Assembly (NCBI GenBank): GCA_003615045.1
Contig: ML014175.1
Coordinates: 30,767-94,766, forward strand
Direction: 5' to 3'
DNA length: 64,000 nt
Source: Caulochytrium protostelioides
Lineage: Eukaryota; Chytridiomycota; Caulochytriomycetes; Caulochytriales; Caulochytriaceae
The notes beneath the pieces are model-generated. The model made no database searches, had not been told where the DNA came from, and worked only from the letters and a program-made list of their open reading frames with translations. Positions 16,519 through 62,575 of the stretch are shown here, piece after piece (the first letter of the stretch is position 1; each line of letters starts with the position of its first letter). Both the position numbers and the translations under genes were made by a program.

Positions 16519-16630
16519 ACCAAAATGCGTACTGCCTCGGTCGGGGACCCTTGGGGGGCACCACCGAAGATTGGGTGCGTGTTAGGTGCCAGGATTAGGG
16601 TCTATATATACGACCTCGCTAAACAAAAAC
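16519..16630 (+). repeat. Conserved non-coding Fanzor tail, copy 1 (candidate guide-RNA scaffold)
   Basis: Directly after the TGA. It shares with the tails at 35866, 56440 and 62485 the order: ACC(A)AAATGCG, a short hairpin, ACCGAAGATTGG, GTGCGTGTTAGGTGCC, a TATATA run, CGACC.CG.TAAAC. The hairpin stem here is CCTCGG (16535-16540) against CCGAAG (16564-16569), with one C-A mismatch. Confidence 0.7.
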
Positions 16631-16634
16631 CGTG

Positions 16635-16745
16635 CTCAGCGGTTCCGCACCATCCTGGCCTCATGGGAGGGACCCCCCCCACACACACACACCCGGGGGC
16701 ACCAAGGTGGGTATGACGTTGGTCTCGGACACTTATATATATGTA
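16635..16745 (+). mobile_element. Third, internally deleted Fanzor-derived fragment
   Basis: Immediately after copy 1's tail, CAGCGGTTCCGCACCATCCTGG repeats part of the coding block of the other copies. It then jumps to a degraded tail (GGGACCCCCCC, an AC microsatellite at about 16679-16691, GGGGGCACCAAGGTGGGT, TTATATATATG). The order of blocks indicates an internally deleted copy of the same element in the same orientation. It ends about 40 nt from the dynein stop codon. Confidence 0.55.
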
Positions 16746-16781
16746 AATCAAATCGGGCATCGGTGTGTAAACCGGTCTGTA

Positions 16782-19700
16782 TCAAATATAGTCAGTCGAG
16801 CCCAGGCATGCGGTGCCGTGCTGAATGTAAAAGTCGGGGTCGTGGGCACCGCACTTCAGCTCCAGCGAGAGGATGTACGACGGCTTCTCGCGGGACCCCG
16901 CGCGGATCGAGTAGTAGTACAGCGGACACGTGTACAAGTCCTGGCGGCTCTTGCGCTTGCTCTCGACAGGACGCAGATGGATCGTCGGCATCGTCGTCAT
17001 CAGCTCGAGCGGAACCGCCTCGGCGAGTGTGTTGGTCTTGCGGTCCCACGAGGCGCCCTCGAGATAGATGTTGGTGAGATAGATGCCGTCCTTGGGCGGA
17101 CCGCTGAGGGCGGCCTCGTCGTCCACGCTCAGCACCGTGGTCTCCCACGAGAGGCTGTCGACCGCGATACTGTTCGCGCGAGCGGCGTTCTGGAGGATCG
17201 CCGTGAGGAAGCCCGTCGGGAACATGAATGCGCCGAGCCAGATTTTGGATGGGTCCTGGCCGACGGCCCACGCCGCAAAGTATGCCACGCGCTGGGCGAG
17301 GTCGCGCAACCAGTCGCCGAGCGACTTATTTGAGTAGTAAAACTGCGACCACAGCTGCGGAACCCGCCCGAGCATCACCGCGCCCAGCACGTCTTCGAGC
17401 GCGCTCGACAGCAGCAGCAGACCCATCACGCCCCGCTGGAGCTCCTCAATCGTGTTCGCCATCGTCTCGAGCAGCGCATTGTACAAGGCGACTTCCTGGC
17501 TCAGCACGATCACGATCGGATCCGTGCGACTCTGCTGCTTCAGGTGCTTCGTCTCGATCTTGGGGGGTACCTTCTGCAAGAGATCCTGCAGGAGCGTCAT
17601 CGTCGCCTGGGCCGCGGACGCGCCGCTCGCAGGGCCTCCGGAGCCTCCGCCAATGCCGGCACTGGCGGCACTGACGGCCACCTTCAGGGACGGCAGCGAC
17701 GTCAAGGTCGACACGAGGCGGTCAGCCTCGCGGATCTGGCTGTTGATGTCAGCGTTCAGGTGCTGCCCAAAGATCGAGGGCGGGTCGGCAATGGGCAGCT
17801 GCGCAATGTAATGGCGGACCGACACGAGGGAGGATACGTCCTGGGGGATGTAGTAGATGCCCTCGTCGTCCAGAGGCACATTCGCATCGTCGAGACATGT
17901 AGGCCTCAGGTACTGGTTCACGTACGACTTGACGGTGCGGCGGTCCCATTCGTCCGTGACGCGACCGCCGTAGGTCGCCTCGGCAATCAAGTACCGCATC
18001 GCGTCCCACGGGATTTCCGCATAGTCGTTCAGCAGCACCTCGAGCAAGCTCTGCGATGTTTCGAAGTCGCTGTCATTGAACTCGGCCGCCACGTTCCAGC
18101 CCAGAGAGAGAAACTTCTTGCGCTCGATCACAACCGCGTGAAAGAACGTCAGCGAGAACAGCAGACGCTGGTACGCGCGGTGCTGTTTCGTACGCGCGAT
18201 GGAGGCGTCGGTCTGGCCGCTGTACAGGCGGCTCAGGTTCGCCTTCAGACCTTGCGGCGGCTCAGTGGTCATGCGCTGCCCGCGCTGAAGGATGCTAATC
18301 GGGAACTGGGGATGCGGGTTCGTCGACAGCCACAGCCGGAAGTCAGGATGGACCGTGCCCGGCGCCGCGCTGCCCATCTCCTCCACGAGCTTTTCTAGCT
18401 GCGACATCCAGCTCATCGACAGGTGGCAGTTCGCGAGGAAGATCCAATGGCCATGCTTCATGCCTTCAGCCACGAGGCGCTCGGCCTTCGTGGACTGACC
18501 CTGCCCCAGACTGACGCTCAGCAGACGGTCAGTCATCCCCAAACGCTGTGCGGTGGCGGTCAGCAGCGCCATCGGGTCACTGCCCTTTGACAGGAGGAAA
18601 ATCAGCGGTGTCGCCGACGACGCATCCGCGAGAACGTCGCGGACATCGAGGATCGGCGACTCCAGGAACGCGCGACCCAATCCGATGGAGACGAAGTGCT
18701 GCGCTGCAAAAACCAGACGGTCTGGCCGTAGGGCGCGGATCACAATCAAGCGGCGAACATCGCTCATCTTGCTCTCCCAGTCGCCGGGCATCAGCGCGGA
18801 CTCGGGCTCACTCTGGCTCAGCCACGATTTCCACTCGCGGCTGTGCTGCTCGAATGAGGCCATGATCCCGGCCATCGCAGGGATGCGCTCCGTGTCCTGG
18901 ATGCGGTTCCACGCTTGGTCGGAGAGCCACGGCGTGCATGGGTTGGCCATCACCTCGTCGCCGGCGTCGCCGTCGCTGGCCTCCGCCGTGGGTACTCCGG
19001 CGCCGAGGGTCAGCAGGGCCGTGTATTCACTCATCTCCAGCTTGCCCAGCGACACGAGCACCCGCGTCGCCATATGCAGACTCAGCAGCAGCTTGTGGTG
19101 CTCAAAGAGCGAGCGGCCGTTGATGCGGTAGACCGCCAGCGTGTGGTAGTCGTTGATGTGAGCGATCCGCTCCTGCACCGTGTCGGACTGCGTCGACTTA
19201 CGCAGGCTGCGGTCAAACAGCTGCAGATACGCATCGAGCGAGAACTGGTACGTGGTGTCGATCGCGGCCAGGTCGTTCAGGCAGAAGTAGAGAATCGAGG
19301 AACGCACTGCAGCCGGGCGGTACTGCTCTCGCGCGGCATCAATGCGCGCTTCAGTCTCAGCCGAGACGAGCAGCTGGTCGTGCACTTGCTGCGACGTCGT
19401 CTTGCTGCTCTGCAGCGTGTTCACGAGCACCACATCGTCGAGCAGCGAGCCCTGCGCCGTACTCAGCAGATGCAGGATCTGGTCTTCCAAGTCAAGCAAT
19501 GTCTTTTTGGCCGCAGCCATCGACTGGACCAACCGGCTCTTCTGATCCTCCAGGTCCGCGCGCTCGGATCGCACAATCAGACCTAGGCACTGGTTTTCGA
19601 GCCCCTGCTCCTTGACGGTAAAGTTGATCACCGTGACTTGGGCAAAAATCTCGGGAGAGTAAACGGGATTCGCAAGGCGCGTCGTCATGATGAGCTTGAA

Positions 19701-22700
19701 GTCAGGACTGTAGTCGATTTCCTTTTCGCCGAGCTTAATCATCCAGCGCCCCCCTTTCTTGGTGAGCGAGCGCGCAAGCACCGGCTCGAGGATGGGATCA
19801 AGCGTCTCGCTCACGCCCTGCAGCAGCACCGGCCAACCGAACTGGATCGCGCTCTCGAGGATGCGCAGGAAATCGTTCTGCATGGGGTCCACGATGCGCA
19901 GGTTCTTGTTCTTCAAATGGGCACGGACGAACTTGTTCGCCTGGCCCTGCGGATCGATAATCAGCGGCCAGCGCCGCGAGCGCGCAATCAGAATCCCGTT
20001 CTCGATCGAAAAGATATCATCCGGCAGACCACACGCTTTCCAGGACCACACGTCCGCGGGGTCCGAGACAAAGTCCACGAGCGAGAACACGTCACCCTGG
20101 CAGGGGATTTCAAGCGCCTTGATCGCCTGGATCGCGTGCTTCTGGAGGAGCTCGGTGCGGAAGTCCGAGGGGAAGGCGCCCGCATATGAGAGGAAGGCCA
20201 TGGACAGCAAGCAGTCGCCCGGGATCGTGCCCAGCTGGACTTCATAGTCGGCGATTGACTTCTCCCAGCGCGTGCGTTCTGATGCGAGGCCATTCACGAG
20301 CTGCTCGGCGCGCAGCATCTTGACCTCCATCTCCTCCGCGTCCTTGCGAAGCGTCTCCTTCAGGGCGAGTTTCTCGTCATACTGCTGCTTAATATGCTCG
20401 AGCTTCGCTTGGATCGCCGCCAGACTGTCGGTCGCTTCCTTGAGTGTTTTCTGCTTTTTGTCGAGCGATTCTTGGGCCAAGCGGAGTTTTTCGCGCTTCG
20501 GCGCGACCTGGCGGAAAATGATCCCGTAGGTCTCCATCGCACGGACCCACATGCACAGGCTCTTCGACGCCCCGGACACGCGGCCGACGACATCGGGCTG
20601 GAAGTTCTCGTCCGCACAGTACTGCGAAATGCGTTTGAGGATCTTGTCGGAGATGTTGTCCTTGTCAAAGCCGATGAGCTGCTTGATGAACGCCGGGTTG
20701 CCCAGCTGGCGCTTCGCTTCGTCCCACGTGGGCTCAGCTTTCTTGAGTACCATGACGGCCTCCATCACCTTCTCCACCAACGGCGGCGGCTTACCGTACG
20801 AGCGGATCTCGTTAAGGTCCTTCTTGTTGATGGCCTCCAGTGCCTTAGTGGCCGCTTGCAGCGCAGGCAGGGCTTGGTCCAGGTCGGCCTGGGCTATCGC
20901 AGCGACCCCCTTGACTTCTTCTTCCTCCACGGCCAGCTTTTCGGCTTTGAGCGAAACGCTCTTGGCCTGCTCGTCCGCCTCGCGCTTCTGCTGGACAATA
21001 ACGACGAGGAACTCCTCGCACTGCTTCTGGAATACGGCAACTTGGCGCTTGCTCTCCTGCAGCTGAACGCTCATCGCCTCCACGCTCACGCGCGTATCAT
21101 CCAGCTTCTTTAGCCCGTTCTGGAGCTTCGAGGCGGAGCCCTCGAGAAACTGCTTTCGGGACGACAGGAAGTCACAGTAGCCCGAAACAAACTCGAGGAA
21201 GCTGGTGGCGGTCACAAAGTTGGAACGGCCCGTCTTGACCCTGAGCTGCGCCGAGAGCTCTTGCACGCTCACGTGCACCCGGGAGAAGGCTGTCGCGACG
21301 TTCTTCTGGAGCTTCTCCGACAGTGCGGTTTTACCGAGGTTGGCCGCCGCGACTTCCATCAGCGCTTCTTCAGACCAGTCGGCGAACCAGTCGATGTTCA
21401 TGGCGTTGATGAGCGCCGGGAACGCGCGGATGCGCGTGCGGTAGGCGGGATTGCCCGGGGACATGGTCAGCACGAGATGCAGGTTCTCGCGGGCGCGGTT
21501 AACGAGGTACGCCAGAAAGCTCTTCGAGCCTTCGGGCGCCCACGGGATCTTGGGCTCGGGGGTCTGGCTCTTCATCTCCGACACTTCGTCCGGGGTAAAG
21601 AGGCCCGGGATCTCGCCGTTGTTCAGCAAGTGCGAGATGTCCTCGAGGAAGCTCTCGTGGACGAGCTGCGAGTCCGTCAGCAGGAAGGTGACGGACCGCC
21701 CCTCGGACGCGGCCATCCGGTACACGGTCTTGATGTCCTCGCGCCACTCCTGTGGGCGGTAGACCTTGGATATCTTGATCTGATACGTCGTCGAGCTGAC
21801 GAGGAATGCCGCCAGACGCGTGAGACTCTGTCGGCCGGAGCCGCCATACCCGATGAGCAGCATGTGGCCGTTCGGCTGGCGGAGCACGCGCGCAATGCGG
21901 CAGATATGCTCGATGGCGTCCTGGAAAATGATGATGTCCAGCTGCACCATACCCGGCTCATTGTTGTACTCGACCAGTTTGCTGATTAGCACTGAGCGGA
22001 GACGATCCATCTCGGCGACTTCTTCGTAGATGGGCTCGCCCGCGTTGCCGCCGTTGTTGTACGGGGCGGAGACAAAGTCGGTAAACAGCAGTGGCGCTTT
22101 GCCATTGTGCAAACTTGCGAGCGAGGTCTGGAACGTACCGGTAGCCTTTTCGTCGAGAAGACTCGTAAAGTACGATCGGTCCACACTGTCTGTCAGTCGA
22201 TCCTCAAACACACGCATCGTCTCGTGGGCCCACAGCTTCAGGATGGCCTCCTTGGTGTCAAAGTACTTCTTGGTCGCGCGGCAGATGCCAGCAAAGATCT
22301 TGGACAAGTCGCGCAAGTTAAACAAGTAGTGCGGCTTGGCCGGGGTCGGCAGGAGGCCTGCGAGCACGCCATTGTAGACCTCGATCGTGGCCTTAGTCAG
22401 CGGCTCCGCGAGTGACCGCAAATCGTCAAAGTCAGTGAGCTTGCCGGCCAGAATCGTGCCATAGATGCGGTTCAAGGAAGCTTCGGAGGGTAGACCCATA
22501 TTAATGACGTGGAAGCAGGAGAGCACACGCTGACTGAGCACGGCGCGGCTGCCCCCAGGCGGACCCATCGCAGCCACGAGGTGCAGCTGGTCCACATGCT
22601 GCAGGGTCTGCTTCGAGCGATGGTACGTGGTGCCATACTGCATCAGGTGGCGCAAAAATTCGAGCGGCGGCTGCGAGCCAAACGCATCCTTCACGGGAAT

Positions 22701-25700
22701 ATTAAGATCGTCGATCATACAGACCATCGGTCGGCCGCCCACGGGCGTCCAGATGTTCTTCGTCTTCTTTTCAAGGTGAGCCTCGATCGCATGCTGCAGA
22801 TACCCCGCTGAGGTCTGCGTGCTGAGCGTCAGATTCATGATTTTGTACTTTTCCTCGAGAGTGGGCGCCATGTTGGCCAGCATCGCCGTCTTACCGCAAC
22901 CGACGTCGCCGACCACGAGCAAGCGCTGGCCCGCTTCGAGCAGGGAGCGCGTGATGAACTGCATGCGGACGCCTTCAACCGTGGGCACGTACAGCTTGAA
23001 AAAGGGCGTCGGCACCGTCGGGTACCGCCAGGTCTGGCTCGCCAGCCGGTCCTCCCACGACTGCCACGTGGCGTCTTCTTTCTTGGGCACATACTCGTAC
23101 ACCGTGTCTTTGCTTGGGAACTGACCCTCCAGTCGGCGCAGCCAATTGTCGAAGTCCTTGCGACCGTCGGGGGTGAGGGTCGCGCCGAACGTCCAGATAA
23201 GCGCAAACAACACCCACATCTCGGCGAGCTTCGACCCTTCTTCGCTGGGCTTCGCCAGGTCGACGCCGTTGTCCAACGTCAGCACGGCGTCCGTCATACT
23301 GCAGAAGTTGCGGACGACCGCCGCTTCATTCAGCGGCACGAGCTCGGCACACGTCTTGCGGAACTCCACACAAAGCGGAATGTACTTGTCACAGAGCGAG
23401 GTCAGCAGCGCCGCTCTGTGCGGGTCAGTTTGCTTCTTGAGCCAAGTCGCGATGATGGGCTTGTAGCCGAGCAGCTGGTAGTCGATGTAAATCATACCGG
23501 CACGGCTCACGGTGGCCGGACTCGCGGTCGAGAGGTCGGCGACCTCGAACAGCAGGGAAACGCGGGGATTCAGCGCGATACGCTCGCCGTTTATCAGGGT
23601 GAGGATCTTGTTGTCGTCGAGCACCGTGTTCATACTCTCGATCCACAGCGTGTCCACGGGACCGTCCAGAATCAGCCACTTCTGGTCGGGGCTCTCATCG
23701 CGGCAGATCGCGCGCATGATGCTCGACAGCACACCGTCAGTCCACTCATTCGTCTGGAGGTTCATCTCACCATACAGCTCCGCGAGCGTCAGCGCTTTCG
23801 GATTGAGGATGTGCGTCGTGACGGCGGGGAACGCGGGGTTGCCGCTCGCGGACAGCTGCACCATGGCCTTCGCGAGTGACTTCCACACCACAGACTTGCC
23901 GGTGCCGGACTCGCCCACGAGCATCACGCCGTGGCGAGTCAGTTTTGTCTCGTACAGCTGGATCGCCTTCTGGATCAGACCCGGCACGGGCTCGTAGCCG
24001 CTCGCGACCAAACTTTGCCCTACGGCGGTCTCCAGCACGCTCGTGTCGGCCGTGAGCTGCTCGGTGCCCGGGAAGAGGTCTCCGAGGATCCCCACAAAGA
24101 GCGGCGCGTCGTCCTCCGTGAACTTGGGCAGGTTGTTGTCCAGCAGCGCGGCGCAGAGAACCGCGTCGTCGGTGGCGGCCGCATGCGTCGGGTTACGGCG
24201 CTTGAACCCGGACGACCGCAGGCAGGACGTCATGGCGCGCAGCCCAAAGTCGTAGTGATCCTGCTTGGACAGCTGCTGCACGGATAACCGGTAGAGCGTC
24301 TCGACCTTTTTCGACAGGGCGCGCGCGTTGCCGAAACCTTCTGCAAACAGCATAATTTCCGCAATAAGCGCCGAGTCCGGGACCATCATGGCCACCGGAC
24401 GGAAGAGGCTGTTCAGATTGTCCGGCAGCTCCGTCCGGCCAGCGTACCCGGGGTTCATGGTAATAAAGATGCCGACCTGCGTGTTGAGACGGATCTCGGT
24501 GCCCTCAAAGACAAAGCTCGTTGCGTTGCGCGATACTGCTTGCAGAATGCACGAAATTTGGAGGGCAACGACCGAGAGCACTTCGATGTCGATCCGATTG
24601 AATTCGTCAAAGCAGCCCCACGCGCCGCTCTGCGCGAGACCCGAGTACATGCGTCCGAGCGAGCGGAAGTCCATCGCGTCACTGCAGTTGACGACGATTA
24701 CGAGCTTTCCGAGACTCTTGCCGAGGTCCTTGACGGTCTCGGTCTTGCCCGTTCCGGCAGGACCCTGCGGCGACCCGCCCCGATGCAGGTTGAGTGCCAT
24801 CGTTAGCGTCATGTAACAGCGGTCCGTCAAAGGGGTGATGACGAGGCGGCCGCTGTTGCCGAGGTACTCGTGGCCGTAGTAGAAACTTGTGTTGAGCTGG
24901 CGGACCATGCAGTCAGGCTCCTCCACGACGGTGCCGCCAGGCCCACGTTTCGCGACGTCTTCCCAATAGAAGCGCAATTGCGAGGTCCATTCGAACGCAG
25001 AGACCGAGCAGACTTCGTGCTTCTGCAGTCTCTCGAGCACGTCGCGCGAATGCACTTCGGACGTGATCAGCGCGATCAGCTTAGCGCGCTCTACCGCGCT
25101 AAGCGGCAAACGGACCAGCTCCGACCACTTTTTCAAACTGGAAATCTGCTTCTTTTTGAGATGGCGGATCACCGAGACGTCGTTATTGTTGCGCTCAGCC
25201 TCGCGGAAGGCCTTCGTGCAGTCGGAGGTCCAGTTGATGAGACTCGCCGTGATAAGACACTGACCGGGCCAGTCGCGGAGCCAGCGGTCGCGCTTAGCGT
25301 GGGTGTAGGCCTGCAGCGTCTGGCCGAGCTGGTTCTGCAGCGTGCGCCGCATCATACTCTCGATGTCGGTCAACCACATCTCCACAGGGCCCTCAACGAC
25401 GACAGGCCCTGCAAAGGGGACGTACTCGCCGTCGCCCGCATACATGCCAATGGCATGGTAGTGCTTGCGGTGCTCGGGGCCTTGCAGCGTCAGCTCGAGA
25501 CGGTGCAGGTTGTCGAAACACTTTTTGAGATGCGGCTGGACCGCGTTCGGGTCTTTGCCCTGGCCCAGGATCTCGAGGAGATCGTCATTGCTGAGGAAGT
25601 AGAAGCGTGGAAACGCTTGACGCTTCGTTTCCAGATAGTCATCAAGCGACTTCTCGATACGCTCGAGACGCTCGTTCATGCCCTGCAGTTTGGGGGCGAG

Positions 25701-28700
25701 CGCCGGGTTGATCATGACGGTCAGCGTCTTGGGCTGCTCCCTGGCGGATTTGAGGAGCTCGACCCAGTCGTCGTTCAGCTGGTCAAAGAGATGAGTTTCC
25801 TGGGGAAGCTGCTTGCGGATATCCTGCGAGCCGACGAAGATGTTCTCAAGATAGTTCCACTGCCGCTGGACCGTCAGCGCCAGATCAATGTTTTCTGAGA
25901 TCAGAGTCAGACTCGACTCCCAATAGGAGACCTGCGTCTTAAACGCGATATGGAAGCGGTTCGACTTCATGGTCGACAAAACCACTTGGTGCTCGTCGAG
26001 CAACTCGAAAATCGCGTCAAGGCCCTTGAACTTCCACAACCCCAAGGCTTCCTTATACGGCGCGAATTCGAGGACTTGGACCTCCCACGCGGCTTCAATT
26101 TCCGAGAGGCTCGTTTCGATCGCGAGCTCCATACTGGCCGCGCTACACAGATCCGCAATGAAGGGGATATGGGTGTCCATGCCCAGGCGATGGATAGCCT
26201 CGATCGTGAAGCTCTTGTCGTTGTGGTCGAACTCGTGGCCAATCTCGTGCTTAATCTGCTCCCAGTGGCGCGACCGCAAGGCCGGATTGGTGATGTACCC
26301 AACGAGTGGCACGAGCTTGCGAACATAGGCGAGGCGCTCCTGGAGGGTCGGCAGCACATCGTAGTCGCGCACCGAGGCACCGTCCGTGGTGGACGTGGCG
26401 GCATCGTTCTGCATGGCCGCAATCTTCTTTTGATACTGCACGATCGTCTTCTCGAGCTGCGCACTGTCGATCTTGAGGAACGAGCAGTCCACGAGCTCGC
26501 GCCACACGGCTTCCCACTGGTCGAACAGCTGCCAGCACCCTTTGAGCTGCGCGATCTGGGCCGCCAGGTTCTCAAGGACCATGGACGGCTGGTAGATCTG
26601 CCCAAAGACGGACATGCCCTTCAGCAAGTAGCGCTCGCGCTGGATTGCTTCGTCATACTGGCTCTGGAAGTCCTTGAGGATCGCCAGCGCCTTGCTGGCT
26701 ACCGGTGGAACGTTGGAACTCGTCGAGCCCGCGGACCCCGCAGACTCCTTGGCGGCGGCCGCTGCGACATTGGCTACGGAGCCCGCCATATTGATCGAGG
26801 ACCCCGAGGGCGAGTCAGCCGCGTTCTGCTGAACATCGCGCTGCTGGATGGCAAGAACCGTCTGGACGCTGGTGGGTGCCCCTGACTGGAAGCGCTCCTT
26901 AAGCAGCTGGATCTGACGCTGTGCATCTTCGCTTGAGAGCAGCAGCTCGGCCTTGAACCGGGTCTTGCACTCGTTCAGCAAGACTTCGGTGCTCTCGGTA
27001 GTTGCCTCGAACTGGGCCCGCGCGGCCGGGAACTCCGCGAGGCGCAGCAGCTCGTCCGGCGTGATCTGGACTTCGTACTTGGCCAAGATGTCGTACTGCT
27101 CGCGGATCGGCCCGAACTTGGCCAGCAACGCCGGGATCTCGGCCTGCACGCTCGCCAGCAGATCGAGGCGGTCGGCGAGGGCGTCCAGGTTCTGAGGCAG
27201 ATCACTGAGTCGTGCCACCTCGCTCTCCATGTACTCGTACAATCCATTGAGCGAGTTCTGTGCGTCCGAGTTGAGCAGATGCGTCAACTTATTGCGCCAC
27301 TGGTCGCAGTGGTTCACAATCTCGGCCTTGAGCGGCGAGCAGTCCAGCCGGATAAAGTTGATCCCCGTCATGGTTTCTTCTTTCTGGACATTGTTTGCCA
27401 CCTCATTGTATCGGTTGATGTCCGCGTCGAAGGTCGACAGGGCCGGCTTCAGCTTCGCGTAGCGGCGGATAAAGGCGTCCTTGTTCAGCTCCCAAATCTC
27501 ACGGTATGTATCCCAGTGATGCAAGTACGCCGAGAATTTGGAATCGCTGGCAGTCAATCCGTTGTGGATAGACACAATCTGCTTGGCAACGTCATCCTCC
27601 TGGATCAGGTTAACTAGACTGCTCGTGTCGCCGTGCGGCGAGGTGAGCATGACGGTCGGTAAGGCATCGCTGTCGGCCGCGCCGTGCGAGGCTTGGCTCA
27701 GCTGGCGCACAATGATACTGCGCAAGCTGGGCAGTTCCGCAATTAGGGAAACCATGTCGCGAGCGGCCTTCTGGATCGTCGTCTCGACCGTGGCCATCGC
27801 AGGGAACAGGCTGACGCGCTGCTTGTCGAGGACGACATTGACCTTCAGCAAAGGCGCCACGTCCACGAGCCCACCGTCGTTGTGGTCGTCGCCGTGGTCG
27901 CCATGGAGCTTCCCACGGGACGAATTTGCTGCTGCGCCGCCGCTGCCGCTGCCAGAACCACGGGCTTTGATGTCCTGCCCAAATAGGGTCTTGCCAAAAT
28001 CGTTAAGGCAGCGTCGCGCACTGATCCGTAGGGCCTCGCCAACGCGGGATTCCATCAGCGAGACAAAGCGATCCCATGCAGGAGCGACCTCGCGTGCGTC
28101 TTTGCGGAACAAGGCATGAATGTCGGCGAGCAAGTTAGCGATGGCCAGCAGATGACCTGAGAGTCGCTCACCGGCCGCGCCGAGTTGCTCAGCATGTGCC
28201 TCCTCAAACTCGCCGAGATCATACAGGTTCTTGGCATCGTTGTGCCAAAGCCGCGTATCCGTCATACGCTGGCAGTGCTGGTCGATTGCCGCCGTGTAGT
28301 CCTGGAACTGCCGCACAACCTTCTGGCTTTCCTGGAGATGGCGGTAGCTCTCCTTGACAAAATAGTCGGTGATCCCGCGGCTGGCCCACGTGAGCGTCGT
28401 TAGGCCCGGGTTGAGCTTCTTGTTGAGAAATTTGAGCCGCTCGCGGAACAGACTCAGTTCGCCCGGATGCAGCGAGGCAATCATCGCATTATACTGCCGC
28501 ACAATGGACGCGACGTTTTCGCGCAAGATGCGCAGCTCTTCGCGTTGTGTGTACAACTCGTTGGCCGCGAAGGGAATGTCAGCCTTCAACTTCACGAAGT
28601 AGTGAACCTCTTGCAGCGTCCGCAAGATGTCGCTGTTGAAGCAGATCACGAGGCGCTCGATCTTGTCGAATTGGCCCGGAGTCGCCGTCGCAATCAGGAA

Positions 28701-35389: not shown

Positions 35390-35865
35390 GAGAGCGGAAG
35401 AAAGGGCGAAACCGCCGTTCCTACATCTCGCCCGTACCAGGCGTGTGCCCAGCGCTTCCGCGCCGTCCTGGCCGACGAGTCCGGACGATCTAGGTGCATG
35501 CCGAGGAGGATGGGATCATGACCAAGGTGAGTACCTGGGACCCCACAGCTGTGCAGATCTCTCGCGCGTCCCAGGCGGGCCCCTAACCGGCCACCCCGGT
35601 CCGCAAGACCCGAGTGGACGCCCAGACGTATATGGTCCTGATACCTGGTCAACCCCGGCGCCAGGGAACCGTGGTTCGAGGGTTGCTGTGGTGTGAAGCT
35701 ACCAACAGCCATGAAGCCACCCACAGCAAGTTTGTGAACCGCGACCTCCATGCCGCGTTGAACATCCGACGCCGTCTGGCCTTACCCGCCAGACCGATAG
35801 CGCTGTGCCGCAACCCCGAGCATACCAGGTTGCAGGCCGTGGTCGGCAACGTCATCCGATACTGA
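35390..35865 (+). mobile_element. Decayed Fanzor relic, C-terminal fragment
   Basis: It starts with a GGGCGAAACCGCCGTTCC block equivalent to 55922 onward and contains the GTCCTGGCCGACGAG.CCGGAC block (RuvC-II region, one base short, so frameshifted). A spacer with GTCCGCAAGACCCGAGTGGACGCCCAGACG follows. The RuvC-III remnant is KFVNRDLHAALNIRR (near 35730-35775), with NRD intact, and a TGA lies at 35863-35865. A short duplication near 35700-35725 doubles the ACCAACAGC/GAAGCCACC segment. It lies isolated between GH16 and eL19, with the tail following. Confidence 0.75.
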
Positions 35866-35965
35866 ACCGGATGCGCGTCTGCTTCGGGGGGATCCCTGGG
35901 GGGTACCACCGAAGATTGGTGAGCGCATTGGGTCAATATATGGACGACCGCGTTAAACTCAATCT
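35866..35965 (+). repeat. Conserved non-coding Fanzor tail, copy 2 (candidate guide-RNA scaffold)
   Basis: The hairpin stem CTTCGG (35882-35887) pairs perfectly with CCGAAG (35909-35914), with the loop GGGGGATCCCTGGGGGGTACCA folded between them. ATTGG, a shortened middle, CAATATATGGACGACCGCGTTAAAC and then unrelated flank follow. Compared with the 56.4 kb copy, the second stem pair is T-A instead of C-G. Confidence 0.72.
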
Positions 35966-38628
35966 AGCCTTGTCAGAACATCGGCCTTTCATTGTTTCTG
36001 CCAAATTGGGTACCTCATGAGCCATCGATAGGGATCGGCATCGGCGGTGGTCGGTTCGTCCACACGGACTTTCCCCGCCGAGAACCCACCGTGATGATAG
36101 GTCATGCGGGTCCCTCCGTATGGTCCTCCTAGGGCGACCCTCATCGGTCGCCTGAGCGAGTCCCAAGCCTGGCAGGGTCGTCCCAGACTGTCACGGCTGC
36201 ACAAACGGTCAAGACAGTCACGACGGCCAGGACCGCCGAAGCGGCTACGACGGCCGCCGCCCCCGCAGTGTGGCCACCGCGTCTTTCGGCTCTCTGAAAA
36301 TCCGCCGAGCCGCACCCGCCAGCCCTTCTGGGCTGTCTGCGGCGGCCTCGCCTTCCCTCTGGCGCTGCCAGCCTCCGCCATCGCGGGGTCGGACGTGCTC
36401 TGCAGTGCGTCCGCCCCACGGAGACGTGTGCTCCCGCATCGATTCTCGTGCGAATGAGGGACTGGCCCAGGACGGGGGTGGACGACTGCTGTGGACCACA
36501 GCGGCCGCCGGCGGAGTTGCCGTCTGCCCCGGACGGGCCAAGGAATCGAGGCTTGGGCGCGACTCGCCGAACAGATTTAATTGTCTCGTGTTTCTTTCCT
36601 TTTTTTTCTGTTGTCGAGGGGATGCTCCCGAGCGCGGCTTTTCGGGAGCCATCAGCCCGTTGGAGAGGCCCTTGCGGCGGAGGGAGGGCGCCGCTGGACT
36701 CCGGCGGCGGTGGGGACCATGCGCACCGCGCTCACCGCTGGGCTTCGGCGTGGTCCCGGTTGGCCCGCGTTGACCGACCGACCATGGCGCGTTCCAGCAG
36801 TCTCCTCGCCCGGCCCGGCCGGCGCCCTCGCCTTCGTGACGGGCGAAGCACGACGGCGCGAGCAGCATGCTGCTCCGTGCTCCGCGCTCCCTGCTCACAG
36901 GACGACGGCGGGGCGACGGGGGTGCGTTCGGGGACGTGGCCGCCGTACCGTCGACCCGCTCGCTCGCTCGCTCGCTCGTTCCCGGAAGCATACCGACGGC
37001 GGTCTGACCCCCGACCGTGGCGCGCCCGGCCTCGTTCGGACTCGGCGTCGATGGGCGGTGGCGACGGCGACGAGCCCGTCTTGGTCCATCGGCCCTAAGT
37101 CACACAAATCACAGAGAAGCGACGATACGTGGCCAAAGTGGGTGCTGAAGGGCACGTTCCCAGACCGAACGGGCCCTTGCATGGATGCGAGTATGACCAT
37201 CATACCTGCACGTGCTCCTCTCCCGACCAAACGTGCGCACAAGGTTTTGGTTGACGTCGGACCACCTCCGCCCCTCCCCACCACTCGACCACTCGACATC
37301 CTCTCTTCACCATGTAAGCTGAAGAACCCACCGTCCGTCTCGGCATTCCGGTCCTCCCCCGCGTTGACGGGTCATACCGGTGACACACATGCACATACAT
37401 ACACACACCGAAACACACATGGACACCGACAGGGCATACGCAGCATAGCGACCGATTTTCCCCCACGAGCATGGGGTCTGAACAGGCGGCATGCTTCGAG
37501 CGAAAATCCAGCACCCCTGAGCACGGCTCCTTCACCAGCGATGCGAGCACCGGCAACGAGCCCTCTTGCCAGGCCAGACTAATGCGTGTTCCAGATGGAG
37601 ACCGTTGACCCTTCCAACCCAGCGACGCTACGCGTGACGACCTCGTGGCGAGCCCTTCTCGGAGGGGTATCGCACGAGTCCCGCCTTCGTGGTCGGCGTG
37701 GCAACTTGGGGCATCCCCTCACAGCAGCAAAAGACTCATGCCTTCGCTGTTCTGTCTTGACACACCGAGATGTCGGCCGTCCATGGCGAGACGCCGCTCT
37801 CGTCGTCGATAGGGAGCAAGACGCGAATGTCATCGTTTCTTGGCCTGTTGCGTCGGCCACGTAGATGCTGTTCGGAGGTCAACGCATATCTCTGTCTGAC
37901 GCCTTTCATAGCTGGCGCTTGGTTTGACGCGGAAGCGCCGTGCGGGTTCTCGGCATGGTGTTCTTTCGCTTCTCCCCATACCCGTGCCGTGGTTGCCCTG
38001 TTTCGTCCTCGTAGTAGCCGCGGTACGGTCTCGCATGGGGGTGGTGTTTTCGCTGTCTGCGGCACGTCGTTCCTTATTGGAATCTCATGATCCGTCCTCT
38101 ATGCTGTTACCAGTTGCGGCACGCATGTTCTAACGGTGGCCGCCCGGTGGCCACCCTCATAGGACTAGCGGAACAGCGTTCATGACGGTGTCAGCATGGT
38201 TAAGCAATACTATGCATGATCTCTGCCGGCGTCGCTGCCGTCGCGCTTTTCCGATCATCGCGAAATGCCGAAGAGTCCGTCTCTTCACTGATCGTTAGCA
38301 TGTTTTCCGGCATGCGATGGATTTGTCCTCAATTGTCTGCTACGTCGCATGCTTTCCCCATTGTTGAGCGTCCCATCTCGGCCCGAGGAAGGGGCAGTCG
38401 TTTCAACCAAAGCCGTAGCAGATGATTTTAAATCCTCTATGCGGATGCATTGTCTACTGTCTGCATAGGCCATCTGGCATGTGTGTGTGTGTGTCTGTTG
38501 TGCTGGCGCCCGTTATTGTGCCTTCCCCCTTTAAGGGCAGCCTTAGCCTCCACCTCGTAGTTCGGACCGTAATACTCACCTTTCCCGTTTCTCCTGCACT
38601 TCTTTCCCGTCGGTTTCCCATCGAACAG
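35966..38628. other. Long intergenic region upstream of eL19
   Basis: 2.7 kb. The part at 36040-37080 is very GC-rich with long overlapping frames of low-complexity composition on both strands, none believable. An ACACACATGCACATACATAC-type dinucleotide-rich stretch lies near 37380-37430 and a (GT)n run near 38481-38495. The first exon of the ribosomal protein gene must lie somewhere in the last kilobase, but I could not place it. Confidence 0.4.
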
Positions 38629-46759: not shown

Positions 46760-46791
<32 letters not shown>

Positions 46792-47024: not shown

Positions 47025-47161
47025 CTTAACTCCTGGTTTTCTCTTTTTGTCCCATCTTTTCTTTCTTTCTTTTTGCATTTGCTTGTCTTTGCTTCCAATC
47101 TACATGCATTCCTACTTGTAATTCCTCATGCGATGTCTGTTCGTTGTGCAACGTCTCTGCG
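47025..47161. other. Short convergent spacer between the Sec7-PH gene and LEU1
   Basis: 137 nt with a T-rich stretch (ttttctttctttctttttg). The two genes converge here and probably share 3'-processing signals. Confidence 0.6.
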
Positions 47162-54639: not shown

Positions 54640-54717
54640 GCAATGCCATCCAGGCCACCCTAAGAAACATACAAGTTCTCCCTTGAGACAACCTAGCATG
54701 AGTTGATTGGGGCCAAA

Positions 54718-55544
54718 ATGGCAAGAAAGTGCTCCCGTCCGCTGAAGAAGCAATCCGGTTTCGGGTTGCCCACTGACATGCGGCGCATTTGGTGTGCGCG
54801 GTGTCCCGACAGGACATGACAGAGGCAGTGGACATCGCCAACCGCAAGTGCCCCTGTGCAGCAAAGAAGCAACCCAGTTTCGGATTGCCCTCTGACACGC
54901 AGCCCACTTGACGTGCGCAGTGCCCCGACAAGCCATCAGCAGTGGTAGACATAGTTCTCCTCGCTGCCTATCATCCTGGTGCGACTATATCATCAATGCA
55001 AAGCACCTCCGCGGCTACTGAAGGAATTGCTCCACGCATCTTTTCCCCGTTGAGCCTATATTTATCTAGGGAAGGAACGCACGATTCGAATCGCAGTGGA
55101 AGCTGCTTGCTCAGAAGTATGCGCATCCATACATCCCACAATCGAAGAATTGGCGGGGGTTGCTCAGCGCGGCGCCCCGACACGTTCGTCGACGCCTAGA
55201 CACATGTCGTTTTCGGCGAGGTGGATGAGGAAGGCCACGATACCCGCGCGTATCGCGGTAGCAAGAACAAGCGGATGCTGCTGCTGATGGAAGACACAGG
55301 CGGCCGCCTGACGGTTTTCATTCAATTGAATCAAGACGCATTCGTCGACTCCCACGGGAGAAGACATGGAGGTTGCTTCAAAAAGAGCAGGAAGACCGGG
55401 AAGTTGCTCGTCAGTGGCCGCAAAGGATTGGACTCCCGTATCGGTGTGTCCCTAGATCGGCTTAAGCATCTCTGGAACACTGTCCCCAAGATGGAATTCC
55501 AGATCGAACACATCTTTTATGACGGTTGCAACCTCGAGAAGTAA
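54718..55544 (+). pseudogene. Broken gene: EsV-1-7-like Cys repeats plus a nuclease-like domain of giant-virus/algal type
   Basis: Two Cys-rich units near 54718-54815 and 54838-54935 share the phrases FGLPTD and PSFGLPSD, followed by WCARC and (stop)RAQC and then CPD(K/R). This C..C...(P)SFGLP...C..C layout is the EsV-1-7 repeat, first described in the Ectocarpus virus EsV-1 and in brown-algal IMM proteins. Unit 1 ends in a frameshift with a TGA, and unit 2 has TGA where the Cys codon stood. After ~250 nt of decayed sequence, 55205-55544 reads VDEEGHDTRAY, KRMLLLMEDTGG, VFIQLNQDAFVDSHG, GGCFKK and FQIEHIFYDG. This resembles the C-terminal domain that follows EsV-1-7 repeats in oomycete, algal and large-virus proteins, with a DE.xH...RM pattern that may be an endonuclease core. 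The frame ends at TAA 55542-55544, where the Fanzor fragment begins. Family assignment is from memory of motifs, not a search. Confidence 0.6.
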
Positions 55545-55545
55545 A

Positions 55546-56439
55546 AACTCATGTCATGTCATTGATATGCACGGGCAGTACTATGTGAAAGTTGGCGTGA
55601 AAGCCGCCCAAAAGCAGTCAGAGAAGTGGCAGCGCCATTTGAAAGAGCCGCTGCAGCGGCTGTCGGAGATGAGCTCCAAGGGCACAGCGCTCGACGTGCA
55701 CCACCGCTTCCTAGAGGTGTGGCTCGCCACGTACGAACCGCTGTGGGCCTAGTTTCTGAAGCCGCGCTGGGCACACCAGCGCCTGCGATGGTACAGCGGC
55801 AATCAGCGCGTGCTTGCCAAGTTCATGAACCGCGTCGCCAAGGAAGCAGCCACGGAGATGGCGCCCGTGATCGCTGAAGTGGTGGTCGCCTATGGCGCCT
55901 CCAAGTTTGCCCCCGGCGGCAAGGGCGAGATCGCCGTTCCAACCGCTCGCGCTCACAAGGTGCGCGACCAGCGGTTCCGCGCCACCCTGGTCGACGAGTT
56001 CCGGACGACTCAGGTGCATGCCGAGACAAACGACCTCCTGACCAAGGTGAAACCCCGGGACCCGACGCAGGTGCCGGCCGCTCGTGCCGGCAATACCCGG
56101 ACGGGCGCTCGCTCAACGGCGCCGACATGGGTCAACCCGCCCCGCGATGTTCGCGCGGGCGCTTCCCCGGCCAAGCCGACGCCGGCCACCCCGGTCGGCA
56201 AGACCCGGGTGGACGCCCAGACGAATGTGGTCCTGAACTCCGGTCAACGCCGGCGCCAGGGAATCGTGGTTCGAAGGTGGCTGTGGTATAGTTCCACCGA
56301 CGGCAAGTTTGCAAATCGCGACCTCAATGCCGCGTTGAACATCCGACGCTGCCTGGTCTTGCCCGCCAGACCGGAGGCGCTGTGCCGCAACGGGGAAGAC
56401 CCGCTGCAGCCCAGGGACGGGAAGCTTATCCGGAGCTGA
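55546..56439 (+). mobile_element. Best-preserved Fanzor fragment (C-terminal half, one in-frame TAG)
   Basis: A single frame from ~55519 to the TGA at 56437-56439, broken only by a TAG at 55750-55752. In order: HVIDMHGQYYVKVG; a helical segment ending LATYEPLW; then, after the stop, PRWAHQRLRWYSGNQRVLAKF, VVVAYGASKFAPGGKGEIAVP and VDEFRTTQVHAE, which carries the RuvC-II Glu. A Pro/Thr/Arg spacer of ~75 residues follows, then KFANRDLNAALNIRRCL with the RuvC-III Asp. The GxG..SVPT-like block, the (V/D)EFRTS-type phrase and NRDxNAAxNI are hallmarks of Fanzor/TnpB nucleases. The zinc-finger Cys pairs normally near VDE(F/Y)RTS and before NRD are mutated away, and RuvC-I plus the N-terminal domain are missing, so it is inactive. 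Confidence 0.82.
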
Positions 56440-56540
56440 ACCAAATGCGCTAAATGCGTCACTGCCTCGGCGGGGGACCCCTGGGGGGCATCACCGAGGG
56501 GATGGCGAGTACGTTAGGTAAGGAGGAGCCTAAACACCGC
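56440..56540 (+). repeat. Conserved non-coding Fanzor tail, copy 3 (candidate guide-RNA scaffold)
   Basis: It starts right after the TGA. The stem CCTCGG (56465-56470) pairs perfectly with CCGAGG (56494-56499) around CGGGGGACCCCTGGGGGGCATCA. The downstream part (GGCGAGTACGTTAGGTAAGGAGGAGCCTAAACACC) is more diverged than in the other copies. Confidence 0.7.
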
Positions 56541-56855
56541 TTCGTTCGCTCGATAAAAAATACGATACACTATGTGATGGACGCGGCGGTCCGCCGGCGT
56601 GCTTTGCTTGGCCCGGAAAGGGCGGCCTCGTGTCAAGTATCGCGGTGGTGGGCGCAGCTGCGAGCCCTATGGTCGCCGGCGCCGCGCCCCCGGCCGCATG
56701 ACCTCCCGTCGCTAGGTCGACGGGTCCAGCCTCTCGTCGACGCGGCGGCGCTGCGCAGCGCCGCCCTCAACGGCGTCGGCAACGCTTCGAAGCAAACCCT
56801 AGATCATCGGCTGGTGCCGTCGCGGTGATGCTGATGAGTCCGATCCATCCGATAG
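56541..56855. other. Short intergenic region upstream of the cysteine-synthase-like gene
   Basis: 315 nt with AT-richer sequence at 56550-56580, probably the promoter and leader of the next gene. No other feature seen. Confidence 0.45.
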
Positions 56856-59651: not shown

Positions 59652-60218
59652 GGCCGCTTCGATCCTGTTCATATTAGCCATACTACGCTTCATGCTCACG
59701 AAAACGTCGATCATGGGAAAAAGAAATGATTTGCTTTCGGCGCTATATTGACATTTTCAACCGTTCATGCCCTTTTCTCAGCGACGTGACCTGTCATCGG
59801 TCAGGATTCGTTCATGAAAAACGGTGGAGTGGCCAAACGGTGGAGGGGTCTTAATTTACCGCTTGATGGGCCGGGAAAGGCGGCTTGCTGCCCCCTGCCT
59901 GGCCGGCGATATGAACTGGCTGGCCGATGCATCGGATCGCGGCATTTCTCCCTGAGATCGGCGAAGGCCCGCCACGGCGGTGGCGGCGGGAGCGGGCGGC
60001 CACCAATGACGCAGCGTTTGCCTGACGCCCACCAGGACTGGAACCAGCGGGTCTGCTACCACCCCTCACCGATGTCACGACACGCGCACCTAAACACCGC
60101 GTGACTGCCCATTGGCACGCGTTCCCTGGCCACGTTGGCCCGCTTCGCGGGAACGGAACATCGAACTTCGCCTGGTTCGCTGTCGTTCAACCATAATTGA
60201 ACGTCTCTCTGGCTCACG
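59652..60218. other. Intergenic region between the cysteine-synthase-like gene and the peptide transporter
   Basis: 567 nt. The first 170 nt are AT-rich and hold the 3' end of the upstream gene; the rest should contain the transporter promoter. No coding frame is convincing. Confidence 0.45.
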
Positions 60219-62144
60219 ATGCCGCGCACGCTCCCGCGTGCGCCCGGCACGTATGAAGAAGTGCCGATGCGCTACCTGTCGACGCGCTCCAGCACGTCTA
60301 GTTTCGATGCGCCGCCGTCCGCATGGACGTCGGCCGCGGCCTTGAATAGCGCATCCACCAAGCCGGCCGATCTGGATCCTGTGGTGGATCCGAGCCGTGA
60401 CGACGCGCTACAGGATGAGGCCCTCACGCACGATCTGCCGCGGGTCGCAGGCCCGATCCCGGTCGCGGGGTTCTTTATCGTCGTGGTCGAGGCCGCCGAG
60501 CGACTCGCATACTACGGTGCGAGCTCCACGTTCTTTAATCTGATCGCGTACCCGGCGCAGACCGCGGCTCAGCTAGCACAGGTGCAGGCGGGCACGCTCG
60601 CGCTGCAGCCGGGGGCGTTCGACCAGGGCACGGCCGTCGCCAACGGCCTCATCAATTTCTTTACCCTCGCGTGCTACCTGAGCCCGATCGGGGCCGCGAT
60701 CGTGGCCGACCATACGTGGGGAAAGTACCGCGCGGTGGTCATCTATTCGCTTGTTTATCTGTGCGGCTGGATCTTGCTCACCGTGTCGGCGGTGCCCTCC
60801 AGCCATGCGGCCGATGGAACGCCAGTCTTTGGGCGCGCCGCACTACCGCTGTTTGTTCTGGCCATACTCGTCATCGGATTCGGCGCGGGAATCAAAAGTC
60901 TCATCTCCGTCATGGTTGCCGACAATGTCCCCCGTGAGCCCTATATCCATGTCCGCCACAATGGCCAGCGCGAAGTCATCGATCCCGATTTAACCGTCTC
61001 CCGGGTCTATGTGTGGTTCTACTGGTCCATCAACATCGGCTCCGTGGTGGGCATGCTAGCTTGCACAACCCTGGAACGATCAGCGTTCTGGAAAGCGTAT
61101 TTGGTTCCGGCGTGCTCGATGGTGGTGGCCATCGCCGTGTTTGTGATGGGTCGCCGGCGATACCATGCCCCCGCAACCCCTGACGGCTCAGTCATCATGA
61201 ACTCCGTGCGATGTATCGCTTATGCCGCTCAACGGCGCCGCCGCTATCGGAAACAGTCAATAATTACCTCCAGTGGTGTTATGACCCTGTTAGACTATGC
61301 ACGGCCACTTCCGAACGAGTCACAGCGCGAGTGCGAGCAGCGTGTCTGGCCCGATCGCCTCGTCGATGACTTGAAGCGCACGCTCAAGGCCTGTTCCATC
61401 TTTCCGATCATGATTATCTACTGGCTCGCATATTCGCAACAGACCTCCAATCTCATCAGCTCGGCCGCTCAAATGGAGCGGCCTGTCTGGCTTAACAACG
61501 ACGTTGTGCCCCTCCTCGATCCCGTACTCCTCTGCTTACTGCTTCCCGTGTTCGACCGCGTCATTTACCCCTGGCTGGCGCGCCGTCGGATCCGCTTTTC
61601 GCCGCTCCGCCGGATGGCTCTCGGCATTGCCCTCGGCGGCATCAGCATGCTGAGCGCTAGTGCAATCCAGGCGCGCGTCTACCATGCGCCCCCCTATTTT
61701 AACCACCCACTGGTCGACAGCGATGGTCAACCCGCCACGGGCACGCCCAACCACGTGTCCATCTGGTGGCAACTCATCCCCTACTTCCTGATCGCGTGCT
61801 CCGAGATCCTCGCTTCCGCGAGTGCGCTTGAGTTTGCCTATGTCGCATCACCCGATGCGCTTAAGTGTCTGGTCGCCGCGCTAGCCTTGCTGCCTTCCGC
61901 TGCAGCGTCGCTGATAAACCTCGTCATCAGCCCGCTCGCTCGTGATCCCCACCTGACCATCATCTATGGCGTCTATGGAGGCCTAGCTATAACGGCGTCC
62001 TGCGTCTTTTGGGTTCTTTTCCGTCACTTGGACGCCGAGCACGCGCAGATGCAGCATGGCGCCACTACGACCAACTCTAATAAAAGCTCCCAGGTGGATC
62101 TCTCGATCGGCATCTCTCCTGATTCTGACCTCAGTATCTCGTGA
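60219..62144 (+). CDS. PTR2: Proton-coupled oligopeptide transporter (POT/PTR2 family)
   Basis: Plasma-membrane symporter importing di- and tripeptides. 641 residues, single exon, start ATG at 60219. A ~75-residue cytosolic N-terminus precedes TM1. The POT signature ExxERxxYYG appears as EAAERLAYYGASS near residue 90, at TM1. NGLINFFTLACYLSPIGAAIVADHTWGKYRAV (TM2-TM3, including the DxxxGKY phrase; described in two parts here) and FGAGIKSLISVMVADN follow. After a central loop, VWFYWSINIGSVVGML is at TM5. A basic cytosolic loop (RRRRYRKQS) separates the halves, and PYFLIACSEILASASALEFAY is the second family signature near TM10. Twelve helices can be drawn in all. The tail ends SDLSIS at a TGA that touches the Fanzor relic. 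Confidence 0.93.
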   Translation: MPRTLPRAPGTYEEVPMRYLSTRSSTSSFDAPPSAWTSAAALNSASTKPADLDPVVDPSRDDALQDEALTHDLPRVAGPIPVAGFFIVVVEAAERLAYYGASSTFFNLIAYPAQTAAQLAQVQAGTLALQPGAFDQGTAVANGLINFFTLACYLSPIGAAIVADHTWGKYRAVVIYSLVYLCGWILLTVSAVPSSHAADGTPVFGRAALPLFVLAILVIGFGAGIKSLISVMVADNVPREPYIHVRHNGQREVIDPDLTVSRVYVWFYWSINIGSVVGMLACTTLERSAFWKAYLVPACSMVVAIAVFVMGRRRYHAPATPDGSVIMNSVRCIAYAAQRRRRYRKQSIITSSGVMTLLDYARPLPNESQRECEQRVWPDRLVDDLKRTLKACSIFPIMIIYWLAYSQQTSNLISSAAQMERPVWLNNDVVPLLDPVLLCLLLPVFDRVIYPWLARRRIRFSPLRRMALGIALGGISMLSASAIQARVYHAPPYFNHPLVDSDGQPATGTPNHVSIWWQLIPYFLIACSEILASASALEFAYVASPDALKCLVAALALLPSAAASLINLVISPLARDPHLTIIYGVYGGLAITASCVFWVLFRHLDAEHAQMQHGATTTNSNKSSQVDLSIGISPDSDLSIS

Positions 62145-62484
62145 TGGGTGGTCGCTTCTGGCGCGGCCAAGTTTGCCCCCGGCGGCAACCGAGATCTCGA
62201 TCTCGGTTCCAACCGCTCGCGCATACCAGGCGTGCACCCAGCGGTTCCGCACCATCCTGGTCGACGAGTTCCGGACGACTCAGGTGCATGCCGAGACAAA
62301 CGATCTCCTGACCAAGGTGAAACCCCGGGACCCGACGCAGGTGTCGGCTGCTCGTACGTCCCGGACGGGTGTTGCCCAAACCGCGTCCACGGCCGCCAAC
62401 CCGGCCGGCAATACCCGAACGGGCGCTCGCTCAACGGCGCCGACATGGGTCAACCCGCCCCGCGCAGGGGTGCCCAACCGACCG
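62145..62484 (+). mobile_element. 5'- and internally truncated Fanzor relic abutting the transporter stop codon
   Basis: From 62146 the sequence GTGGTCGC.TCTGGCGC.GCCAAGTTTGCCCCCGGCGGCAA (pieces) matches the AYGASKFAPGGKG block of the 55.8 kb copy. A short insertion (AGATCTCGATCTCGGTT) frameshifts it, then the VDEFRTTQVHAETNDLLTKVK block and a longer Arg/Thr/Ala spacer follow. At about 62462, inside GTCAACCCGCCCCGCG, it jumps straight to the tail, deleting the whole RuvC-III part. It therefore retains the RuvC-II Glu region and the tail but not the D motif. It forms the 3' flank of the transporter gene. Confidence 0.72.
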
Positions 62485-62575
62485 CTGGGGACCCCTAGGG
62501 GTTCCCACCGAAGATTGGGGTGCGTGTGAGGTGCCAAGATGGGCCTATATAGACGACCGCGTTAAACAAAAATAT
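62485..62575 (+). repeat. Conserved non-coding Fanzor tail, copy 4 (candidate guide-RNA scaffold)
   Basis: CTGGGGACCCCTAGGGGTT, CCACCGAAGATTGGGGTGCG, TGTGAGGTGCCAAGATGGG, CCTATATAGACGACCGCG and TTAAACAAAA follow in order. This is the cleanest copy of the 3' half, but the deletion junction removed the left arm of the CTTCGG stem. Sequence after TTAAACAAAA is unrelated to the other copies, so the element end is within a few bases of 62572. Confidence 0.72.

Follow-up and report, generated by a model that had tools for sequence, protein, structure and literature searches.

The window analyzed here, a 64-kb stretch of the 20.9-Mb Caulochytrium protostelioides assembly (C65:30767-94766), contains five decayed 3′ parts of one family of genes that, judged by a sequence profile, encode a Fanzor1 nuclease. 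Four of these fragments (copies A to D) had been noted in a preliminary description, which proposed that the non-coding tail following the stop codon is the scaffold of an omega-RNA; the fifth (copy E) lies on the minus strand and was absent from that list. A GH16 protein encoded in the window matches C. protostelioides proteins at 93% (over 73% of the query) and 99% (over 24%). Starting at the stop codon, the tail is about 100 nt long and has a sharp 3′ boundary; four nested helices can be drawn in it, on which RNAalifold, the majority sequences of subfamilies and several single copies agree. P0 (ACC/GGT or, in some copies, TGA/TCA, which includes the stop codon) closes the structure beside the stop; P1, of the type AATGCGC.../...GCGCRTT, encloses P2; P2 is the CYTCGG/CCGARG stem of the preliminary description, often lengthened by GGTGG/CCACC; and P3 is CCCC/GGGG.

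Copies A to D lie on the plus strand. The body of copy A, a decayed 3′ part of the Fanzor1 open reading frame (ORF), spans 15927-16518 with its stop at 16516-16518 (nhmmer body match 15927-16423, tail profile match from 16430). Its tail (16516-16629, with the 3′ boundary near 16629) contains P0 (ACC 16519-16521/GGT 16585-16587), P1 (AATGCGTAC 16524-16532/GTGCGTGTT 16575-16583) and P2 (CCTCGG 16535-16540/CCGAAG 16564-16569, with one C-A mismatch). Copy B, likewise a decayed 3′ ORF, has its body at 35395-35865 (body match 35395-35767, tail profile match 35774-35961) and its stop at 35863-35865, followed by a tail (35863-35967) with P0 (TGA 35863-35865/TCA 35933-35935), P1 (ATGCGC 35871-35876/GCGCAT 35923-35928), P2 (CTTCGG 35882-35887/CCGAAG 35909-35914) and the terminal sequence TTAAACTCAATCTA. 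Copy C (55576-56439, stop 56437-56439) is the longest Fanzor1 fragment of the window, in which RuvC-II (DEFRTT) and RuvC-III (NRDLNAALNI) can still be read, as assigned by comparison with aligned relatives and with the PDB-profile alignment; in its tail (56437-56545), P2 is CCTCGG 56465-56470/CCGAGG 56494-56499, the 5′ arm of P1 contains an additional AAATGCG-like repeat, and the 3′ end diverges. Copy D (62136-62464) covers body positions 296-572, without RuvC-III and the stop, and is followed by the 3′ portion only of a tail (62483-62575), which includes CCGAAG at 62508-62513 and matches tail profile positions 116-201 (from 111 on in another alignment). Because the 5′ arms are gone entirely from P0 and P1 and almost entirely from P2, this copy cannot form the described stem, and it folds otherwise. 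Copy E (15419-15800, minus strand, stop 15534-15532) is a Fanzor1 3′ end with its tail and stands head-to-head with copy A. Terminal inverted repeats were considered as an account of this minus-strand tail beside copy A and rejected, since it belongs to a separate copy in head-to-head order.

These coordinates bear out the central comparison of the preliminary description: P2 is perfectly paired with different bases in copies B and C, a real compensatory change, and copy A is the third copy, with a single mismatch. Other parts of that description require amendment. Alignable tails follow the stops of copies A (16516), B (35863) and C (56437), whereas copy D kept the 3′ part only; the terminal motif TATATA..GACGACC..TTAAAC is found in A, B and D (three of four) but not in C; and the copy at 62.1 kb has indeed lost RuvC-III but did not keep its tail whole, the 5′ half of the hairpin being lost.

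Comparison of a profile of the clade with proteins of solved structure identified the gene as a Fanzor1 (Parasitella Fanzor1, 1e-16; SpuFz1, 5.6e-9; Guillardia Fanzor1, 7e-7). This identity rests on the profile, because PDB searches with single copies gave no match. The catalytic D, E and D of RuvC, in the order DPG, DE[FY][RK]T and NRD, aligned to those of PpFz1 and SpuFz1 and were invariant among 16 relatives. Zinc-ribbon cysteines are usual in Fanzor1 nucleases and were not taken as defining; no CxxC pairs were seen in 16 aligned sequences (15 of them relatives) or, by eye, in the consensus of 16 relatives. The Pfam family Cas12f1-like_TNB was matched below the cut-off only, and four relatives (P0065, P0069, P0110 and P0178) carry a precomputed TNB match. 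The aligned relatives (15, then 16) were drawn from 120 listed of the 541 proteins found, and the named ones among those listed include the green algae Tetrabaena and Haematococcus. No relatives were found in viral contigs (67 pattern matches, none of which was confirmed), in phage records or in prokaryote genomes (25 pattern matches, again none confirmed). A search of the accessible literature found no paper naming both Fanzor and Caulochytrium.

Genome-wide pattern searches revealed a large, decayed family whose copies are anchored at the 3′ end and truncated at the 5′ end. A 27-nt pattern at the stop codon was found in 270 places with up to three mismatches (control 0), and patterns further upstream, with a mean identity of 0.93 in fetched copies, were found in 127 places and then, towards the 5′ end, in 39 (controls 0 with equal mismatch limits). 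Of 60 copies whose 3′ end is complete, 56 could be used; their lengths ranged from 44 to 1986 nt. It is this gradient of 39, 127 and 270 sites from 5′ to 3′, together with variable lengths that share a common 3′ end, that indicates 3′ anchoring and 5′ truncation; the fetched copies came from stop-codon, tail or 3′-body queries and are biased to tail-bearing ones, a bias of which the pattern counts are independent. The longest copies extend to the N-terminal region of the protein, by comparison with the alignment of relatives. As exceptions to the anchoring, two body matches (C4:62017 and C64:71056) stop before the tail. Since 3′-anchored copying predicts that tails are retained, retention is no evidence for an omega-RNA, and the argument that copy D had kept its tail in spite of an internal deletion fails: the family is strongly 3′-enriched, and that copy lost half of the hairpin.

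The 3′ boundary of the tail was measured on the 60 of 143 tails that could be placed by the motif TTAAA[C]. Past this motif, eight or nine further bases are conserved (AAAAATATA in 39 copies and TCAATATA in 21), after which the sequence falls to background: information dropped from 0.74 bits at +7 to 0.04 at +10 in the 39 copies and from 1.28 at +7 to 0.13 at +9 in the 21. The fixed boundary that the preliminary description had named as something to look for is thus present within subfamilies. Many other tails end at different distances and still have AATATA-like words (e.g. TCAATATA, TGAATATA and TAAATATA, by eye). Subfamilies share this AATATA-like terminal word at differing distances, and it is sometimes repeated (CTCAATATACTCAATATA); short terminal repeats of this kind are known from some LINEs (long interspersed nuclear elements).

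Conservation along the tail was uneven. Identity in the P2/P3 hairpin was 0.858 compared to 0.839 for the last 88 coding nt in 152 profile hits, and 0.875 compared to 0.827 in the 36 hits from body-query loci. The hairpin is therefore as conserved as the coding end, whereas the P1 5′ arm (0.70 and 0.72) and the terminal part (0.79 and 0.73) were less conserved than the coding sequence in the two sets, respectively. This comparison is one that the preliminary description had named as a test; the lower values weigh against its proposal.

At the level of the alignment, the predicted fold was more stable than its controls. RNAalifold gave -20.5; the reverse complement reached -16.3, and 60 column shuffles averaged -13.5 ± 2.6, the best of them -18.8. 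The majority sequences of five subfamilies folded alike (clustering covered 79 of the 152 hits and gave five clusters of three or more). The clearest fold in the window was that of copy B (z -3.54, with one of 200 shuffles as stable).

Pairing was examined in an alignment derived from the 152 profile hits, of which one start-less hit was dropped and 143 of the remaining 151 were kept. The P1 5′ arm is shifted by one base between subfamilies, its ATG standing at tail offset 8 in 71 and at offset 9 in 46 of the 143 tails. Because of this difference in phase, P1 was anchored on the ATG, a sequence criterion; 117 tails could be anchored and 115 passed the gap filter, 74 of them below 90% identity. 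In the 115 rows, the 21 pairs of the structure exceeded independence by a mean of 0.021, compared to 0.0002 for 1562 other complementary column pairs, which come from the same alignment and thus share the same descent (P=0.0023 against random sets; P=0.0004 against sets matched on expectation). The consensus contains 52 maximal helices of at least 4 bp; among them, P2 had the largest excess and P1 the fourth largest. For P2 in the 74 more divergent rows, 24 double-change cells were observed compared to 11.8 in shuffled alignments (reached by 0/500 shuffles), and the covariation score was 0.203 compared to 0.135 (0/500), with slid controls at or below 0.078. Single P2 pairs occur in several paired states, GC/UG/CG/GU at one and CG/UA/UG at another. 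Columns 22/54, the pair swapped between copies B and C, were CG in 60 rows, TA in 21, CA in 16, TG in nine and other combinations in three (109 cells in the 115 rows). For the whole structure, tested with P1 out of phase in some rows, the observed values were reached by 1/500 shuffles for cells paired, 2/500 for double changes and 2/500 for the score. As relatedness alone can produce values above column shuffles, we take the matched control within the alignment as the answer. Under a tree-based null for pairing, 0/300 replicates reached the observed paired cells, with ordinary values for double changes (115/300) and pair types (118/300); this null seems to add variation and was not relied on.

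Several results weigh against a conserved fold and limit how far the covariation can be taken. Single copies were only mildly more stable than their shuffles, with a mean z over 143 copies of -1.40 in the sense and -1.17 in the antisense direction (compared to -0.69 for coding sequence before the stop in 86 copies and -0.13 for the 3′ flank in 85), and copies A (z -0.17), C (-1.35) and D (-0.88) were unremarkable. The excess of pairing is not unique to the structure, because the helices ranked second (GTGGG/CCTAT) and third (GCCT/GGGC) of the 52 lie outside it. Neither the number of changed pairs nor the number of pair types was unusual, either for P2 (reached by 69/500 and 103/500 shuffles) or for the whole structure (147/500 and 252/500). 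Some changes between subfamilies break pairs (C-A at 22/54 in 16 rows, G-G at 25/51 in 25, C-A at 6/73 in 20 and T-C at 14/66 in 22), and part of the variation in P1 consists of C-to-T and G-to-A changes at CpG that keep pairing by chance. An all-pairs test in the manner of R-scape on 141 MAFFT-aligned tails (G-test with average product correction and two tree-based nulls of 60 replicates each) found no significant pair; the best one (E 0.5 under one null and 0.3 under the other) was not a helix pair, and the top pairs clustered at the misaligned P1 arm. Alignment-based fold prediction on the 74 rows returned 0 pairs, and no Rfam match was found in five loci. The covariation that the preliminary description expected across genomic copies is thus found as an excess over matched controls, with P2 first of 52 helices, and not as any single pair that is significant when phylogeny is taken into account. 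Since this test and the alignment-based prediction were both negative, we regard the support for a conserved fold as moderate. Because most copies are dead, only changes in a few source lineages carry information.

The distribution of wobble pairs bears on which strand folds. Helix cells were GU, a wobble on the sense strand, in 245 cases and AC, a wobble on the antisense strand, in 104; GU exceeded AC in 77 of the 115 copies, with the reverse in 15 and equality in 23. This bias, which fits sense RNA and is also compatible with sense single-stranded DNA, lies mainly in P1 (156:16); P2 (47:28) and P3 (33:30) show little of it, and P0 (9:30) shows the opposite. This unevenness weakens the argument from wobble pairs.

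We propose that the tail is the scaffold of an omega-RNA, to which we assign a probability of roughly 0.6 by analogy to SpuFz1 of Spizellomyces punctatus. The 75-nt scaffold of the SpuFz1 omega-RNA is located between the stop codon and the right end of the element (PMC10432273), and the tail described here occupies the same place, from the stop codon of the nuclease to the right end. Position, length, boundary and structure all fit this assignment. The RNA would be about 100 nt long, with its 5′ end at the Fanzor stop codon or slightly upstream. After folding into P0-P1-P2-P3 it would continue, largely unpaired, to the terminal AATATA; the transcript would then read past AATATA into flanking DNA, which would serve as the guide. 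Separate transcription of the tail, binding by the protein and use as a guide are likewise suggested by the analogy. We know of no other Fanzor function that would explain a conserved RNA fold starting at the stop codon. The proposal of the preliminary description is therefore retained on the Fanzor1 gene, the position, the sharp 3′ boundary, the moderately supported structure and the sense wobble bias, without its argument from tail retention.

The structure of the copies suggests that the same tail is likely to have a second role, in mobilization. The tail is the part that the 3′-anchored, 5′-truncated copies share most, so it looks like the start of copying, and copies may have been made from this fixed end. 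The two roles are compatible, because in other Fanzor and TnpB elements the end bases recognized by the transposase lie inside the guide RNA (PMC10711439).

An unlikely alternative, though the strongest of the rivals, is that the tail is a mobilization signal instead of a guide scaffold, a 3′ stem-loop recognized by a LINE-type reverse transcriptase, which would retropose Fanzor messages starting from the AATATA end. Such copying would yield 3′-anchored, 5′-truncated copies like those seen in the site counts and in the 56 copies with a common 3′ end, and LINE proteins are described in PMC4176376 as recognizing 3′ stem-loops. A terminal function without a guide RNA is what the preliminary description had named as refuting its reading; such LINE recognition and the Fanzor1 elements CRe-1, CRe-2 and CRe-3, known to be truncated at the 5′ end with the 3′ end intact, give it some weight. 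A 3′ stem-loop with AATATA-like words, sometimes repeated (by eye), can be compared to stringent pairs of LINEs and SINEs (short interspersed nuclear elements), and head-to-head composites with both tails outward also fit. Candidate machinery exists in the genome: matches to an endonuclease (PF03372) and a reverse transcriptase (PF00078) lie 1 kb apart at C234:2092-4338 (plus strand) in one 1165-amino-acid open frame without stops, possibly an intact APE-type LINE, and the two families also match close together at C311:2102-4471 (plus strand). In contrast, target site duplications (TSDs) were not clear; at best, six of the 56 copies, which are old, were above the 95% null (2.1-2.5 expected) and two above the 99% null (about 0.5 expected). 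No reverse transcriptase was found in the element as far as it was read, up to some 1.3 kb 5′ of body position 2, and among 100 listed of 168 hairpin places, only C183:9330, a known Fanzor copy, lay within 2.5 kb of a LINE-type match, compared to one or two expected by chance on a rough estimate. A LINE that itself carries Fanzor was also considered and rejected: a Fanzor copy close by on the same strand was seen for two reverse transcriptase matches (C145 and C183), about as many as expected by chance on a rough estimate.

Head-to-head Fanzor pairs recur outside the pair formed by copies A and E (15419-16629 of the window), at L043 (C3), L058 (C91), L017 (C197), L038 (C280), L013 (C337), L039 (C105) and L037 (C8). 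Among 13 close pairs sorted by eye, eight were head-to-head, one tail-to-tail and four tandem (binomial 0.0056); an automatic list gave five of 11 as head-to-head, with the C3 pair mis-sorted as tail-to-tail and the C337 and C8 pairs not listed. In these composites the 5′-truncated ends face each other or are fused, with junction gaps of about 0-570 bp, and the tails point outward. It is possible that such pairs arose from two reverse transcription starts at one break. A more speculative extension, to which we give little weight, would unite the two roles: one tail would serve both as guide scaffold and as the recognition tail of a reverse transcriptase, Fanzor messages would spread by retroposition, and the composites would possibly reflect two such starts at both ends of one double-strand break.

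We consider it quite improbable that a non-autonomous Helitron2-like element, copied by one-ended rolling-circle replication as proposed for CRe-1, CRe-2 and CRe-3 of Chlamydomonas, has the tail as its 3′ terminal hairpin. Bao and Jurka (PMC3627910) filed these Fanzor1 families, in which truncation affects the 5′ end while the intact 3′ end carries a terminal inverted repeat, as non-autonomous Helitron2, and the same truncation is seen here, in a family whose named relatives come from green algae. However, no match to Helitron_like_N (PF14214) was found in the genome, a search in which control genomes were silent as well and which thus carries little weight; most CRe-1 and CRe-2 copies have TSDs (70% and 57%, with 10% for CRe-3), whereas none are clear here; and the sense-strand wobble bias fits RNA better, single-stranded DNA being still compatible. 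That the tail is an ordinary 3′ untranslated region or decayed coding sequence of a GC-rich repeat, its stem due to chance and shared descent, would accord with the negative single-pair test, the empty alignment-based prediction, the CpG decay behind some consistent changes and the excess pairing in two outside helices, but is highly improbable given the matched control within the alignment (P=0.0004), the rank of P2, its multi-state pairs, a hairpin as conserved as coding sequence and the sharp end.

The copy structure of the family is unusual, and four known systems come closest to it. Like the family described here, SpuFz1 and its element Spu-1 combine a chytrid Fanzor1 with a conserved non-coding region from stop codon to right end, and have many loci without an intact ORF. 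In contrast, each end of Spu-1 carries an inverted repeat of 30 nt, whereas the copies read here have a fixed 3′ end and variable 5′ ends, and no such repeats were noticed in them; in addition, the aligned members of the Caulochytrium clade lack the zinc-ribbon cysteines, and the omega-RNA here is a candidate. The CRe elements share the Fanzor1 ORF, the heavy 5′ truncation and the intact 3′ end, and we count their 3′ terminal inverted repeat as a likeness to the tail. They differ in the youth of CRe-1 (about 98% identity to its consensus), in TSDs of 7-19 bp that often flank CRe copies, unlike here, and in having 5-10 exons, whereas no intron was noticed in the copies read here. The stringent LINE and SINE tails (UnaL2 and ZfL2) likewise place a 3′ stem-loop on an element copied from its 3′ end, but the element here encodes Fanzor and, as far as read, no reverse transcriptase. 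The Fanzor1 of Parasitella parasitica (PDB 9cf0 group), the best profile match of solved structure yet a distant one, has CPKC zinc-ribbon cysteines in the aligned part.

The hundreds of genomic copies make this a natural Fanzor1/omega-RNA candidate with enough variation to read structure, in a chytrid, the same group as the organism in which Fanzor was characterized. The family is also a second, non-algal case of 3′-anchored, 5′-truncated Fanzor1 copies, in which how Fanzors help their elements spread becomes directly testable.

Two other regions of the window also contain coding sequence. Upstream of copy C, at 54697-55544, short cysteine-repeat-like coding sequence (two similar units) and a 114-amino-acid frame were found, neither of which had a Pfam match, and parts of 54.7-54.95 kb are also present in a few of the other loci fetched. 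A resemblance of 54.7-54.9 kb to the EsV-1-7 motif was not borne out by any Pfam match. Finally, a 4894-amino-acid open frame without introns extends end to end over 16782-31466 on the minus strand and encodes what we take to be a dynein heavy chain.

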